Source of the DNA: Rhabditophanes sp. KR3021
Lineage: Eukaryota; Nematoda; Chromadorea; Rhabditida; Alloionematidae
DNA length: 64,000 nt
Assembly (NCBI GenBank): GCA_963281155.1
Contig: CAUJLY010000002.1
Span: 186,001 to 250,000, forward strand
Reading direction: 5' to 3'
Shown here: in pieces, positions 4,489-11,430 of the stretch
Numbering within the stretch: position 1 is the first letter of the stretch
Layout of the letters: each line of letters starts with the position of its first letter
Program-made: the position numbers and the translations under genes
Notes under the pieces: model-generated
Database searches by the model: none
Told to the model about the DNA's origin: nothing
The model's input: only the letters and a program-made list of their open reading frames with translations

Positions 4489-4825
4489 GTGCATTTGTGA
4501 ATTTGAAAGAACAATGAAGGCAAAAAAACAAACCAAGACCATATTATTCTTTTGTACAATTCAACAACTGGCTACTAGGATTTCATTTGCCAAATAAAAT
4601 AAAGAGAATTGTAATGAAAGCCATTACTTTGCTTAACCTATACAAAGTACTTCTTTTATGATTTTAGATATGCCGTCTTGATACAATTTATTGTAATAAA
4701 AGTGTTTAATCTATTTTTGTTTGATACATATTTATTGAAACATTCATAGCATTAAGAACGTGCCATTATACTACTCTTCAAATCATATTTGTATTCACAA
4801 AACCTAAGCTAAATAAAATTAAGGT

Positions 4826-4977: not shown

Positions 4978-5001
4978 AAAGTCCTGCTTCCCATTTTCAC
5001 A
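4978..5001 (+). promoter_or_regulatory. Proximal sequence element (PSE) of SL RNA copy 1
   Basis: The element starts AAAGTCCTGCTTCC and ends CACA. It begins exactly 62 bases before the leader, and a near-identical block sits at exactly the same distance before copy 2. Conservation in otherwise divergent flanks, at the usual snRNA PSE distance, suggests the SNAPc-binding site. Confidence 0.7.
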
Positions 5002-5009
5002 TATGGGTG

Positions 5010-5017
5010 TATAAAAG
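5010..5017 (+). promoter_or_regulatory. TATA-like box of SL RNA copy 1
   Basis: TATAAAAG begins 30 bases before the leader. The identical octamer is at -30 before copy 2. Confidence 0.6.
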
Positions 5018-5039
5018 GCTGGTAAAATTAAACCAAGAC

Positions 5040-5133
5040 GGTTTAAAAAACCCAGTTTGAGGTTAGTATGCGTTCAGGATTCTATATGAATTCTGTAAGC
5101 AAATTTTGGGATGAGACTTGCAAAGGTCTCTAA
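5040..5133 (+). ncRNA. Spliced-leader (SL1-like) RNA, copy 1
   Basis: This small nuclear RNA donates its first 22 nt to pre-mRNAs by trans-splicing. The leader (5040-5061) starts GGTTTAA and ends AGTTTGAG, matching the nematode SL1 leader at both ends and at 18 of 22 positions; the middle differs. The donor GT is at 5062-5063. A short helix AACC/GGTT pairs leader to donor, as in known SL RNAs. A strong helix follows, CAGGATTC (5075-5082) with GAATTCTG (5088-5095), loop TATAT. The Sm-binding site AAATTTTGG is at 5101-5109. The terminal hairpin is GAGAC (5113-5117) with GTCTC (5126-5130). Upstream PSE and TATA-like boxes are at -62 and -30. Every element of a nematode SL RNA is present, so it is probably active. 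The 3' end is approximate. Confidence 0.9.
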
Positions 5134-5210
5134 TAAAAATATTAGGGATATAAGTGATTTGTTTTCTATAAAGGAACATCTCATTTAAATGTATACATTC
5201 TTCTCAGCGC

Positions 5211-5234
5211 AAAGTCCTACTTCCGATGATCACA
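5211..5234 (+). promoter_or_regulatory. Proximal sequence element (PSE) of SL RNA copy 2
   Basis: The element starts AAAGTCCTACTTCC and ends CACA, beginning 62 bases before the second leader. It differs from the copy 1 element at only a few positions. Confidence 0.7.
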
Positions 5235-5242
5235 CTAGATCA

Positions 5243-5250
5243 TATAAAAG
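5243..5250 (+). promoter_or_regulatory. TATA-like box of SL RNA copy 2
   Basis: TATAAAAG begins 30 bases before the leader, identical in sequence and spacing to copy 1. Confidence 0.6.
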
Positions 5251-5272
5251 ACGAACAAAAAGAGACTAAGAC

Positions 5273-5366
5273 GGTTTAAAAAACCCAGTTTGAGGTTAGT
5301 ATGCGTTCAGGATTCTATATGAATTCTGTAACCAAATTTTGGAATGAGACTTGAAAGGGTCTTAAA
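5273..5366 (+). ncRNA. Spliced-leader (SL1-like) RNA, copy 2
   Basis: The leader (5273-5294), the donor region and the helix before the Sm site are identical to copy 1. The Sm site reads AAATTTTGGAA (5334-5344), even closer to the classical nematode form. The terminal hairpin keeps GAGAC (5346-5350) but pairs it with GTCTT (5359-5363), trading one pair for a wobble. The loop differs too, so this is an independent gene copy and not a recent assembly duplicate. It lies 233 bases after copy 1 on the same strand. Confidence 0.88.
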
Positions 5367-5894: not shown

Positions 5895-6960
5895 CTATAC
5901 ATTTGTGTTTAAACCGGCAAAATAACTTTTGAAATACTCGTAACAACTAATCATGATAGCACATGCTGGAGAAACTTTGGCTATTCTGGGTACTATTCCT
6001 GTGAATAGTTTTGAGGCACCTTGTAATCTACATATGCTTCCCAGGGCTTCCCGTGTGGAGGTGATTGTCGTTTTACTCTTACCACTTCCAAGCGTAATTT
6101 CTTTATGAGTTTTCACAACATCAAAAGGAGTAGTCAGGGCTCCAGCTAACCCACCGCAAACAAACCCACAAAACGCATTAACAACAAAAGTCTTTTCATT
6201 TTGATTTCTCCATTTACGTATGCTTTTGTTCAAAAACTCATATGAACACCAGTAAATGCCCGAAAATGGAATATCTCTGACAACTGTAGCCGACCACCCT
6301 CTCCAAAGTGATCTTATGCCATCTGATTTTATTGTCGACATCATAGCTTGGCGAACATTTTTGTAAGAAAGTGCCTCGGATTGCATCTTGGTCCTGATCA
6401 TTTCGATTGGCGCTACTGCTGTCACTACCACGAATCGAGCGAAACTACCAGAGAATAAAGGTATTAGTGAATAGTCCCCTAAATGTTTTTGTAAGTATAA
6501 ATTGATTTGATCATAAGCAGAGTAATAAAGGACAGTCGTTGGAATGGCAGACACACTAGTAACAACAAATTTAATTAAATTAACTGAGCAACCATACTTA
6601 CATAGTAGGAGGCAACCCACTCCACAAACTGAATATACCTTCATTCTTGACAATCTTCCTAAATGCATCGAATGTTCCCCTGAAGTTTCCAGGCCTATCA
6701 AACCATTGGCAGTCTATTTGCTTTGTGTTGGGTAATTTACAGGATGAGCAGACATGTTCCATCAACCCATTGTAATACAGGAAACATTCCTCCCTTGGGA
6801 TGGCGTGCATTTGACGCTGAAGACGAATCTTCACCACATCCATCGGTGTCATAGTAAGAGATGTTATACCAGCACCCACTCCTGCTGCAATCATTTGCTG
6901 TTTGACGGTGATGCTTCCCACCTCGGACCTTGATTTGTTTTGGTCCTTTTCACCAGACAT
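5895..6960 (-). CDS. SLC25A40: Mitochondrial carrier, SLC25A39/SLC25A40 (yeast Mtm1) type
   Basis: Inner-membrane carrier of the family that imports glutathione into mitochondria and supports iron-sulfur and manganese enzymes (family knowledge). Exons 6960-6602 and 6555-5895 join across a 46-nt intron to give 339 residues. The three carrier repeats each show the Px[DE]xx[KR] signature: TPMDVVKIRLQ, APIEMIRTKMQ and TPFDVVKTHKE. The segment after repeat 1 (YYNGLMEHVCSSC) has the NGLM-x-H-x-C cysteine-rich insert characteristic of this subfamily, and GLPPT-x-VSAIPTTVLYYSAYDQ fits its second repeat. A pyrimidine-AG (CTTCTTGCAG) lies 10 bases upstream of the ATG and suggests trans-splicing. It lies 176 bases downstream of LeuRS on the same strand, so the two may form an operon. 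I cannot separate A39 from A40. Confidence 0.88.
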
Positions 6961-7136
6961 TTTCTATTGCCTGCAAGAAGACAAACTAAAAATTTGCAAA
7001 AATAAATAAGATATAAACATTTGATCAAACAAATTTGAATAACGACTAAAAACAGATTAGTCATACATTTTATTAAATAACCACTCATACAATATAATTA
7101 AAACACCAAAATAATGCCATCAAAAAATACTATTTT

Positions 7137-10100
7137 TTAATTATTCACATTTTCATAAAAGATAGAAGGTGATCCTGGACATGTAGAGTCCGTAATTTGA
7201 GGATCTACACCTTCTCCAGTTGCGGAAGCAAACACGATATCCTTAGCGTTTAAAGATTCCAAGATATAATTGTAATTCGCTTTTAGGACATCCAGTTGGT
7301 TGAATTTGCAGACATCTTCCATAGCAGACGGTCCACTCTCTTCAACATTTGCCTTGATCATTGTCACGAATGACATCAACTTTTGGGTGTGTTTCTTTAG
7401 GTCGGCAGATTGGGCTAACCGTTGCGAGATCAGCTTGTTGTCGGGCAGTTCGTTTCCATTTTCAATGTACAGACTGTTCAAGATACCAAGGGCCTCAGAC
7501 TGCAACTTTGGATAGGTGTTAGCCGTGTATACGACTGCTTTGTATGGAGCGGTCAGGGAAGTTACACCTTTCTTCTTAGACTTCATTTGAGCTTCTAATC
7601 TCTTGCGGAAGTCACGCATCGAGCTGTCCAAGAAACGGGCTTGACTTAAGATGTTTTCATCTGGAGTGCCAACTACTGGCCAGGAAGCATTCACAATGAA
7701 TCCTTCTTTTCCAATCAAAGTCCAAATCTTTTCACAGACGTGTGGGCAAATCGGAGAGAGGATGATGGCTTGGCGCTCAATAAATTTGAACAACACACTT
7801 TCTTCCATATTGGCGTCTGAACCACACAGTTCCCTGTAACGATCCCGACACGACTGAAATTCAAAGAAGGCACTTTTCAAGGCTTCTTTGTAGTTTGTCT
7901 TGACGTATCCGGCATGACCTCTATTAATCAAAAGAGTCATTTCACTTTCAAAGACGGAATCAGCAAACACGAATGGCCCAACTTCCCTTCTCAATTTTCC
8001 TTCTTTCTTCAAAGCAACTACTTCTTGGACGAATTCGATGAAGTTGTAGAGTCTCAGGATTCCGGCATCAGCCATCGATGTTTCGAAATTAGCATCTTCT
8101 ACACCATCTCCCGCATCAGCCAAGGAGAGTCTCATGCCATCGGCTGAGAATTTGTCAATCGACTCTGACAAAGTTAAGAAGTTTCCAGTACTCTTGGCCA
8201 TCTTCTCTTTGTTCAGGAGCAAATGTCCGTTTCCACGGATGCCCTTTGGCCACTTGTCCTGTCTTTCAGGCCAGATAGCAACATGGTTGAACAGGTAAAA
8301 GGATAGATGGTTTTGGATTAAATCCTTACCAGAGGCTCTCATATCAGTTGGGTACCAATATTCGAATTCGCCCCTCATTTTCAGCAACTTAGCCTCATCC
8401 ACCAACATAGTTTCACCATCAAACTGCTTCGAACAGAAAATGTAGTCCCAAACATCATCACTCATCTTGTCAGCTCCAATCTCTAGACTCCCAACTTCAC
8501 TTCCCTCCACATTGCCTTGAAGCATATGTGCCACAGTATAATAAGCATTGTAGATAGTACTGTCCGACAAAGACTCAATCAAGTATTGCTTATCCCAAGG
8601 CAATTTTGTTCCCAATCCATAAGATCTTGAGCAAGCGTACTCGTGCAACCAGTCAATAGTCCTTTCGATTTGTCTTCTGACTTCGTCTGAGAAAGTGTCA
8701 AGTGCAGCCAGACATTCCTTGGTCTTGGCTTTCCATTCTTCATCCCCGTAATTGAGGTACCATTGATCACACAGAGCAACTACACACTCATCTCCAGACC
8801 TACTAATGATCTTCTTTTCGGGTTCGGAGTAGATGGCAGCTTGGTTGGAGGCGATCAGTTCTTGTTGAATCACTTTCTTCACATCAGCAGTCTTCTGTCC
8901 TTTGTGGCTTCCGACCAACATTATGCCATCGTAGAAACCTTTCAAGTAAACTTCCTTCTTGGCCTCTTCAAGTTTGATTTTTTCATTTTGAGAGGTGATC
9001 TTTAATTTCTCACACATCACAACAGCAGCCATGTCTCCGATCGAAGGAATGTCAATGATGGGAGTGGGTTCGAAAGGCAAAACCATCTCATCGCTGATTC
9101 CGTACTTTTCTCTCAAAGGCGCCTTCTTCTTCAAGTCATTCAAAGCAGCCAAGTCATCAGGAGCATCCGAAGGCACGGAAGTCACCACCCCAGTGCCTTT
9201 GTCGTCTTTCACGGTCAACATAGGTAGAGCATACACCAAGTCATACTTGGAGAGAGGGGCTTTCACTCCCGCTCCCAGGATATCCCTTCCGTAGACAGTT
9301 TCTAATCCTTCAACAAAGTTTATCTTGTTGTTTTGGCTGGTCATGTCTTGGAAAGACATGTTTGTGGCGGCTCTTTTGGTTGCGATCCAAATTTCGTTTT
9401 CGGCATTGGTGGCATAAAAGGCTGAGTAGGCGATGTCTGGGTGGAGATAGCAATTGGTTTGCCCATACATAGTCTCAGGTCTCAAGGTAGCGGCTACCAA
9501 AAAAAGCTTCTTCCCCTCACCAGGAATATGCGCAGCCAACAAGGGCGTCTTCTTAACAACTTCCAACTTAATCAATGTGTATTCTTGTGGACCTACACCC
9601 TCTCCGCTACTTCTATCGTGATCCATGCAAGGTTGATTATCTTTGGGGGAAAAGATAGTGTATCTCTTGCCAAAGTCGATTTTCTTTGCAGTCCGCAACT
9701 TTCTGAATTGCCAGGCAACGAATGAATCGAAGTAGGGGTTGACGTCGGTGGTGATGAATGATCTCCTCCAGTCAACTTTAAGACCCATCTTTTTCAGATC
9801 TTCCGTACATTTGGGTGGAAAGTAGCCAAGCCAATGGGCGGGATCCGCGAATTGCTTGATTTGTTCGTTGTTTAGACCGAGAGATTCCATGATTTGCCAT
9901 TGGAATTTAGCTGTGCCTGTCTTGGCAACGGCTTTCGACTTTTTGCCTTTTGATTTATCTTTGGTAAGTTCAGCCAGCTCATCTTTCTCCTCGGGTGCAC
10001 CAGCAGCTGCTTCCAACTCTTCATCAGTAGGGAAGAGTGGTGGATATCCATAAGTTTCCATTTCACGGGCTAATTTGTCAGCGCAGGCCTTGATGGGCAT

Positions 10101-10424
10101 CCCGGTGCAATGGAATCCAAACGGAAACAGTACCTTCTTTCCTTGAAGACGTTCAAATCCAACAGCAAACTGAAATACGAAAATTAGGTAAAATGACGAT
10201 ATCACTTGACTTACTTCACATTTAGACAAAGAAAAGGTATGTCCTAAATGGAGACGCCCATTCATGTAAGGAAAGGGAAAAGTGGTCAAAAACTTCTGCT
10301 TTCCCTCAAAGTCAGCATCAGCCTCAAACAACTTCCCATCCTCCCATTTCTTCTGGATTTCGGCTTCGATTTTGAGTAATTCGTGGACCTTCCTGCGCTC
10401 TTTTGGAACGTCTTGTGTTGTCAT
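7137..10424 (-). CDS. LARS1: Leucyl-tRNA synthetase, cytosolic
   Basis: Charges tRNA-Leu in the cytosol. Exons 10424-10215 and 10169-7137 give 1080 residues, normal for eukaryotic cytosolic LeuRS. The class I signatures are present: [11 protein letters not shown] (HIGH motif, about residue 52) and [12 protein letters not shown] (KMSKS). Between them lies the large editing insert (HPDIAYS..., [11 protein letters not shown]), and the archaeal/eukaryotic-type C-terminal region follows. I start at the ATG at 10422-10424 ([17 protein letters not shown]), which fits the family. The open frame continues 60 codons upstream, but TTTCAG 13 bases before this ATG looks like a splice or trans-splice acceptor. 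The 45-nt intron is a multiple of three with no stop, so an unspliced message would insert 15 hydrophobic residues just after the HLGH motif. Confidence 0.95.
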
Positions 10425-10604
10425 TATCAATAATGATCTGAAATGGGACAAAGTACGATAAAATTCGAAAAGAACCCAACAAAAATGTCTACTTAACCCC
10501 CCCAAACGACACAAATAAGTCCAAAAAGATAGGAAAGAATTGGCAAAATTATTCAATAACACCCCAACCCAACAAACAATATAAACATTTCGAAATATCA
10601 CCAT

Positions 10605-11430
10605 TAGTGTATAAATTTAAAACCACCAACGTCAGTACAAATTTATTGGGGTTCGTGTCCCCACAGACAATCGTACAAAGATTACGTGGCTTGCATTGAT
10701 AGTATAGTATGTATATTTAAAACTGTTGAAAGTTCATTTATTGAGATAAGTCATTTGTTATTGTAACCTTAAATGAGGAAATTGGTGATGATTAAATATT
10801 TTCATTTGTTTACTTAATTTAAATGTTCATTTGCAGAAAGCTTTTATTACTAATCAAGTTATAATTTGGTGTGTATTTAACAGTCTAGTGTCTGAAAAGC
10901 AAATAACTATAAGCATCTTGAGATCATTGTTATTCAATTACTTAAGCATGACGTATGTTTTGCATTATTACTAGATTAACTTTTGATAGTTGGTATGATT
11001 TTTGGCTTCATATAGATTATATAAATCAGAAAGTCTAAATCTCTTTTCACTAAACAACATGCCTTTATTTATACAAGAGAAAAGGTATGGACTAAGGGAA
11101 CGTTTGGTTCAATAACGACATAACGAGAACGAAAGAATAATTATTTTGATTAAATATAATTTTATATATCAAAAGATTAATTGTTACAATTAGACATTAT
11201 TCAAAATTGAAATAACAAATGTTACGTTCTAATCCTTTTTATAAATTATTATGTCTTTGATAGCCTGGTCATAATAAAAACAAATACACACATTGAGATC
11301 ATTATTATTTATTAATTAATAACATAAAAAGAAAGAGTAAAACAATTGAAGGAAATGTTAATATAAAGTTTGGGGAAACTAAGATGTACTACCATAAAAT
11401 ATACATAGGGTGATTGAATAATCATTTTGG
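10605..11430. other. intergenic, no gene seen
   Basis: This is AT-rich spacer between the 5' end of LeuRS and the 3' end of the methyltransferase gene. I see no open frame, RNA gene or repeat. Confidence 0.6.

Follow-up and report, generated by a model that had tools for sequence, protein, structure and literature searches.

Two spliced-leader (SL) RNA genes lie in tandem in the window, the 64,000-nucleotide stretch of Rhabditophanes sp. KR3021 DNA analyzed here (Table 1). Both are 94 nt long and laid out in the same order: the leader GGTTTAAAAAACCCAGTTTGAG, the donor GTTAGT, a helix with arms CAGGATTC and GAATTCTG, the predicted Sm site AAATTTTGG, and a terminal hairpin. A preliminary description of this locus had reported two copies spaced 233 bp apart that share a 22-nt leader, donor GT, helix, Sm site, and terminal hairpin; we read the copies at 5040 and 5273, with every one of these parts present in each. 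It had also let the feature begin at 5040, which is where the first gene itself begins; the promoters (from 4983 and from 5216) belong to the feature too, and that of copy 1 precedes this start. The leader exon has the form expected of a nematode SL RNA (22 nt, GG at the start, AG at the end, and a GT donor immediately 3′), as does the placement of the predicted Sm site between donor and terminal hairpin. The pair appears in the window as a duplicated 167-nt block with 83% identity, and MFE z-scores against shuffles were -3.04 and -2.16 for the two copies. A possible decayed third copy at 4524-4539 (repeat D2) was rejected as a chance match, no leader following the repeat.

Table 1. Features of the two SL RNA genes, their upstream regions, and the neighboring gene pair (window coordinates; positions relative to the gene start in brackets).
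Feature	Position	Strand	Basis or remark
Upstream element, copy 1 (PSE-equivalent position)	4983..4998 (-57 to -42)	+	CCTGCTTCCCATTTTC, two letters off consensus CCTACTTCCGATTNTC
TATAAAAG box, copy 1	5010..5017 (-30)	+	Upstream motif comparison, matrices
Start-site motif ACCAAGAC, copy 1	5032..5039 (-8 to -1)	+	Consensus ACTAAGAC
SL RNA gene, copy 1	5040..5133	+	Sequence read, family membership, structure
22-nt spliced leader exon, copy 1	5040..5061	+	Donor GT at 5062-5063
Helix II, copy 1	5075..5095	+	CAGGATTC/GAATTCTG, 5-nt loop
Sm site AAATTTTGG, copy 1 (predicted)	5101..5109	+	98.7% pairwise identity in family
Terminal hairpin, copy 1	5113..5130	+	6/7 pairs changed on both sides
Upstream element, copy 2	5216..5231	+	CCTACTTCCGATGATC
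TATAAAAG box, copy 2	5243..5250	+	Upstream motif comparison
Start-site motif ACTAAGAC, copy 2	5265..5272	+	Upstream motif comparison
SL RNA gene, copy 2	5273..5366	+	Leader 5273-5294, Sm 5334-5342
Operon-like pair, LeuRS then mitochondrial carrier	5895..10424	-	Candidate leader acceptors

We searched the assembly (44.85 Mb, six contigs) of this strain, a clade IV bacteriovore with meiotic parthenogenesis and a genome given as 47.0 Mb in passages of PMC9071541. The loose pattern GGTTTAA...AGTTTGAG matched 125 places, against 9 for the reversed pattern, and the genome-wide copy count that the preliminary description had called for thereby comes to a family of more than 100 genes. We listed 100 of the 125 matches in contig order; the other 25 should fall on contig C6 beyond 720 kb. 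The exact 22-mer made up 93 of the 100 listed, where an order-2 Markov model of the window predicts 3e-5 copies on both strands of the genome. Sequence was fetched for 98 of these places (the omitted two were matches of 17 and 18 nt), and 96 of the 98 passed a filter for the Sm site, the exceptions being L015 and L022. Five further genes, one beside a listed place and four from matches to the Rfam SL1 model (RF00198), brought the set to 101; three duplicates in another register were removed from the gene set. One leader sequence is common to 95 of the 101 genes, and the other six show five variant forms. A DNA search with copy 1, in which the best 40 of 150 candidates were scored, returned identities of 94-100% throughout and also reached places on C6 beyond those in the pattern listing. 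All six contigs carry SL genes, some standing alone and others in short tandem clusters with a spacing of about 240 bp. Linkage was examined for 107 SL genes (the 101, L015, L022, and four places on C6); 74 of them are no more than 1 Mb from a contig end, a share that is too high because the remaining pattern matches should lie further inside C6. L015 (C1:2587971) and L022 (C1:8477870) have altered Sm sites and L051 (C4:1985280) is an SL copy with unrelated upstream sequence, suggesting that some family members, these three, are probably dead.

Conservation within the family follows the parts of the gene. Pairwise identity among 81 distinct RNAs reached 99.0% for the leader, 97.8% for the donor, and 98.7% for the Sm site; helix II stood at 90% and the terminal helix at 79%. 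In the 95 distinct genes for which long upstream sequence was available, the leader was 98% identical, and upstream identity was 32-34% from -160 to -80, 70% from -59 to -42, 86% from -30 to -23, and 87% from -8 to -1. With the flanks diverged and the working parts kept, the spread of the genes is therefore old enough for flanking similarity to have been lost.

The given structure has 94.9% of cells paired across the 81 distinct RNAs, versus 25-49% when the 3′ partners were slid by 1-3 columns, a comparison that favors the unslid register as the structure was drawn from the same sequences. Of the 22 pairs, nine show changes on both sides, and the terminal hairpin accounts for six of these; pair 31-61 (columns 32-62 of the alignment) is G-C in 72 sequences and A-U in five. 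None of 500 shuffles, which ignore relatedness, matched any of the five structure measures. Two named pairs are weak: 18 of 80 sequences fail to form one and 24 of 81 the other. Stem I, formed between leader and donor, has 98.8% of cells paired, and its four pairs show too little variation in the family for covariation to be informative; the 33-nt leader-donor piece folds no better than shuffles (z 0.40). Compared with SL1, the stem does compensate, leader AACC facing donor GGUU where the SL1 consensus has UUACC and GGUAA.

The interior of the leader had been called non-standard, which is borne out by an ungapped comparison: 4 of 22 positions (8, 9, 11, and 14) differ from canonical SL1. When up to three mismatches were allowed over the whole genome, canonical SL1 matched one place, itself a variant of the Rhabditophanes family, and a single C. 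elegans SL2 leader matched none; the window leader is therefore lineage-specific and SL1-like. Rfam at gathering scores gave no match in the entire window. The SL1 covariance model that the preliminary description had proposed running aligned end to end with both copies, yet in a lax search of 601 bases it scored only 21-22 bits (E 0.16 and 0.26) against a cut-off of 75. Two unrelated Rfam families reached 23.9 and 22.3 bits in the lax search, so the SL1 score alone proves nothing. Genome-wide, the best RF00198 match had 26.5 bits (best 50 of 14192 candidates scored), again below 75.

Set beside known systems, the RNA resembles C. elegans SL1 RNA (RF00198) in its 22-nt leader of the form GGTTTAA...AGTTTGAG, its Sm site AAUUUUGGAA, its putative leader-donor stem, and its terminal hairpin, and the roughly 110 copies there are comparable to the family here. 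It differs in that leader interior and donor have changed together, helix II is different, the genes are not in a 5S tandem array, and scores are 20-26.5 bits against the cut-off of 75. C. elegans SL2 genes are likewise scattered in the genome (passages of PMC11822377), and one SL2 leader (an excerpt of PMC7986045) contains AACCCAGTT, as the Rhabditophanes leader does, whereas the 3′ part of the latter is the SL1-like GTTTGAG. Strongyloides is the next closest genus by LeuRS protein, and S. ratti uses SL1-like leaders exclusively, operons included, its operonic transcripts being resolved by SL1-related leaders (Guiliano and Blaxter 2006; passages of PMC1657053). According to the same passages, these leaders have 5-8 nt from GGTTT to CCCA and 5-6 nt from CCCA to AG, and all but four of the 19 end in GAG. 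The leader described here has spacings of 6 and 5 nt and a GAG end, a likeness of spacing rule and ending rather than one drawn sequence by sequence across the 19. The two species differ in variety, with 19 leader variants in S. ratti RACE products (PMC1657053, in those passages) and one leader in 95 of the 101 Rhabditophanes genes examined.

This variety in S. ratti bears on whether ours might be a minor leader beside a different, dominant one that escaped us, the more so as the other leaders sought were those within three mismatches of SL1 or of one SL2; against more than 100 copies with a near-uniform leader, we regard this as highly unlikely. The suggestion that the leader might be undescribed holds among the PMC texts searched, the 19 S. 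ratti leaders standing in Table S4, a supplement outside that text. Neither the 22-mer nor its 13-nt core was found in these PMC texts, which number 5.39 million; shorter leader strings brought up no nematode title, and Rhabditophanes together with spliced leader brought up unrelated mentions only, in both cases among the matches listed.

Upstream, the SL genes have in common a PSE-like element CTACTTCCGATT (also written CTACTTCCGATTNTC) from -56, a TATA box at -30, and ACTAAGAC starting at -8 and ending at -1. Using matrices self-fitted on 90 distinct SL upstream regions, we found the first element best at -57 (first matrix letter) in 85 and the TATA box best at -30 in 89; strict TATAAAAG at -30 is present in 50 of the 90 and strict CTTCCGAT at -53 in 45. 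Promoters were also read for U1 (15 of 16 genes), U2 (12 of 13), U4 (4 of 4), U5 (7 of 7), and U6 (4 of 6, the two weakest omitted). In all 33 distinct upstream regions of U1, U2, U4, and U5, CTAACCCA or a one-letter variant lies at about -58 to -62; in the four strong U6 genes, a related element, TAACCCACC or GGCCCACC, is accompanied by a box resembling TATAAAAG at -26. CTAACCCA is absent from all 90 SL upstream regions, and ACTTCC is absent from every snRNA upstream region scored. On this mutual absence the SL genes are, as judged by upstream motifs, a promoter class of their own in the Rhabditophanes genome. We also observed a strong snRNA element, CTAACCCAGTCG, near -60 of U1, U2, U4, U5, and U6 (L075-L090, L093-L118), unlike the SL element. 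In vertebrates a TATA box combined with a PSE marks Pol III genes, and TTTT should stop Pol III; because such a run lies within the Sm site of the SL RNA, Pol II is the likelier polymerase.

These motifs also bear on whether the window copies could be silent or decayed paralogues, with other copies supplying the leader. A family of more than 100 that includes damaged-looking members (L015, L022, L051) leaves room for this, as does the two-letter departure from consensus in the upstream element of copy 1. Both copies, however, retain leader, donor, Sm site, hairpins, and TATAAAAG, and closely match the other two upstream motifs, and we consider silence or decay unlikely. Copy number, conservation, covariation, and promoter support the original reading, in which the SL RNA genes stand in tandem and their SL1-like leader is specific to the lineage. 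We are confident that both copies work and are members of a dispersed family of SL RNA genes, more than 100 in number, whose SL1-like leader replaces canonical SL1.

An SL gene is found no more than 1 kb from nine of the 16 U1 genes, and in every case U1 is upstream on the same strand; when the SL positions were shifted randomly 300 times, the mean was 0.06 such U1 genes and the maximum was 1. The corresponding figure was 8 of 47 scored genes for 5S (control mean 0.18, maximum 2) and 2 of 13 for U2 (control mean 0.09, maximum 2), the latter not strong; no U4 (0/4), U5 (0/7), or U6 (0/6) gene was this close. The 5S and snRNA counts are of scored matches, and one of the 16 U1 genes falls below the cut-off. 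In five of the nine SL-linked U1 cases the gap is an identical 275 bp, which suggests a single duplicated unit, so five separate U1-SL arrangements remain; three of the 275-bp cases that we compared (L040, L041, and L043) are 97-98% identical over 8 kb. This 8-kb duplication, carrying U1, two SL genes, and 5S, is found at C3:1138800-1147000, C3:1236700-1244700, and C3:2007200-2016500. The order U1-SL-5S occurs at C6:505595-506311 and U1-SL-U2 at C5:57770-59082, and U1 is also upstream of SL at C1:4171794-4172869 and C5:1773998-1774344.

Dispersal over all six contigs, together with the placement of some copies inside a unit duplicated at three places, might be expected of a SINE-like or transposon-borne repeat that merely resembles an SL RNA. 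Such a repeat is very hard to reconcile with conservation confined to the gene with its promoter (identity is about 33% farther upstream), with helices that covary, and with an L041 unit whose only ORFs of at least 120 aa are one that we take to be major sperm protein-like (MSP-like) and its antisense; we give this reading almost no credence. A transposon as carrier was rejected as well, there being no transposon-type ORF of at least 120 aa in L041, the one duplicated unit examined.

The 47 scored 5S rRNA genes are dispersed over the six contigs and not arrayed. The C. elegans arrangement, a 5S tandem array with SL, was not found in this genome, and Rfam detected no 5S in the window. The statement that no 5S gene adjoins the pair accordingly stands for the window but does not extend to the genome, where the eight linked 5S genes are found. 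In Euglena, SL RNA genes are linked to another small RNA gene, 5S, and are partly dispersed (passages of PMC2784804); compared with this unrelated lineage, the most strongly linked neighbor in Rhabditophanes is U1, upstream and on the same strand.

Within the window, the SL pair lies downstream of a mitochondrial carrier gene that forms an operon-like pair with LeuRS. On the minus strand, LeuRS has its ATG at 10424 and its stop ending at 7137 (ORF 7140-10616), and the carrier its ATG at 6960 and its stop ending at 5895, with 176 nt from the LeuRS stop to the carrier ATG. AATAAA at 7074-7069 stands about 100 nt before the end of a candidate acceptor CTTCTTGCAG at 6971, and the carrier ATG follows this acceptor by 10 nt; TTTCAG, a hexamer found 33 times in 128 kb (both window strands), stands 19 nt before the LeuRS ATG. 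These putative acceptors fit trans-splicing but neither prove it nor name the leader. For the LeuRS protein, identity to Rhabditophanes sp. KR3021 is 99% across 94% of the query, the next match being Strongyloides venezuelensis (71%). In a predicted protein of Ostertagia, LeuRS is fused with Utp11 and with a carrier that is 40% identical, over 237 residues, to the one in the window; the comparison suggests that the LeuRS-carrier order, and perhaps an operon with it, extends to clade V. As evidence against trans-splicing, SmY RNA was not found in the genome (best 56 of 9481 candidates scored), and a weak match (22.8 bits against a cut-off of 39) was rejected as it overlaps a U5 gene.

We infer a mechanism in which each SL gene would be driven by its own promoter (PSE-like element, TATA box, and start motif) and would yield an RNA of about 94 nt, most likely made by RNA polymerase II. 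Sm proteins would bind this RNA at AAUUUUGG to form an snRNP, which would donate its capped 22-nt leader in trans to the 3′ acceptors of pre-mRNAs, including those of internal genes of operons; an SL1-like, lineage-specific leader would have taken the place of canonical SL1. Judging from sequence, the family very probably supplies the leader that is spliced onto many Rhabditophanes mRNAs.

The family is of a known kind, that of nematode SL1-like SL RNA genes, and is a well-supported addition to it with an unusual arrangement. New are the dispersal of the SL genes, a promoter unlike that of U1, U2, U4, and U5, and the proximity of 9 of the 16 U1 genes to SL genes. We lean slightly toward the view that the SL locus was rebuilt: SL1 and the SL1-5S array would have given way to more than 100 dispersed genes for one SL1-like leader, part of whose spread would have been as small-RNA cassettes carrying U1 on the upstream side and 5S or U2 on the downstream side, and the promoter class, being separate from the U1/U2/U4/U5 PSE, would allow SL RNA to be controlled independently. 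The Rfam SL1 model misses this family. More generally, in Rhabditophanes, a free-living nematode related to Strongyloides, the leader provides a means of locating the 5′ ends of mRNAs, true starts, and operons. The divergence of SL from snRNA promoters and the U1-SL linkage open two questions to testing: how the supply of SL RNA is regulated separately from the spliceosome, and how SL genes disperse.
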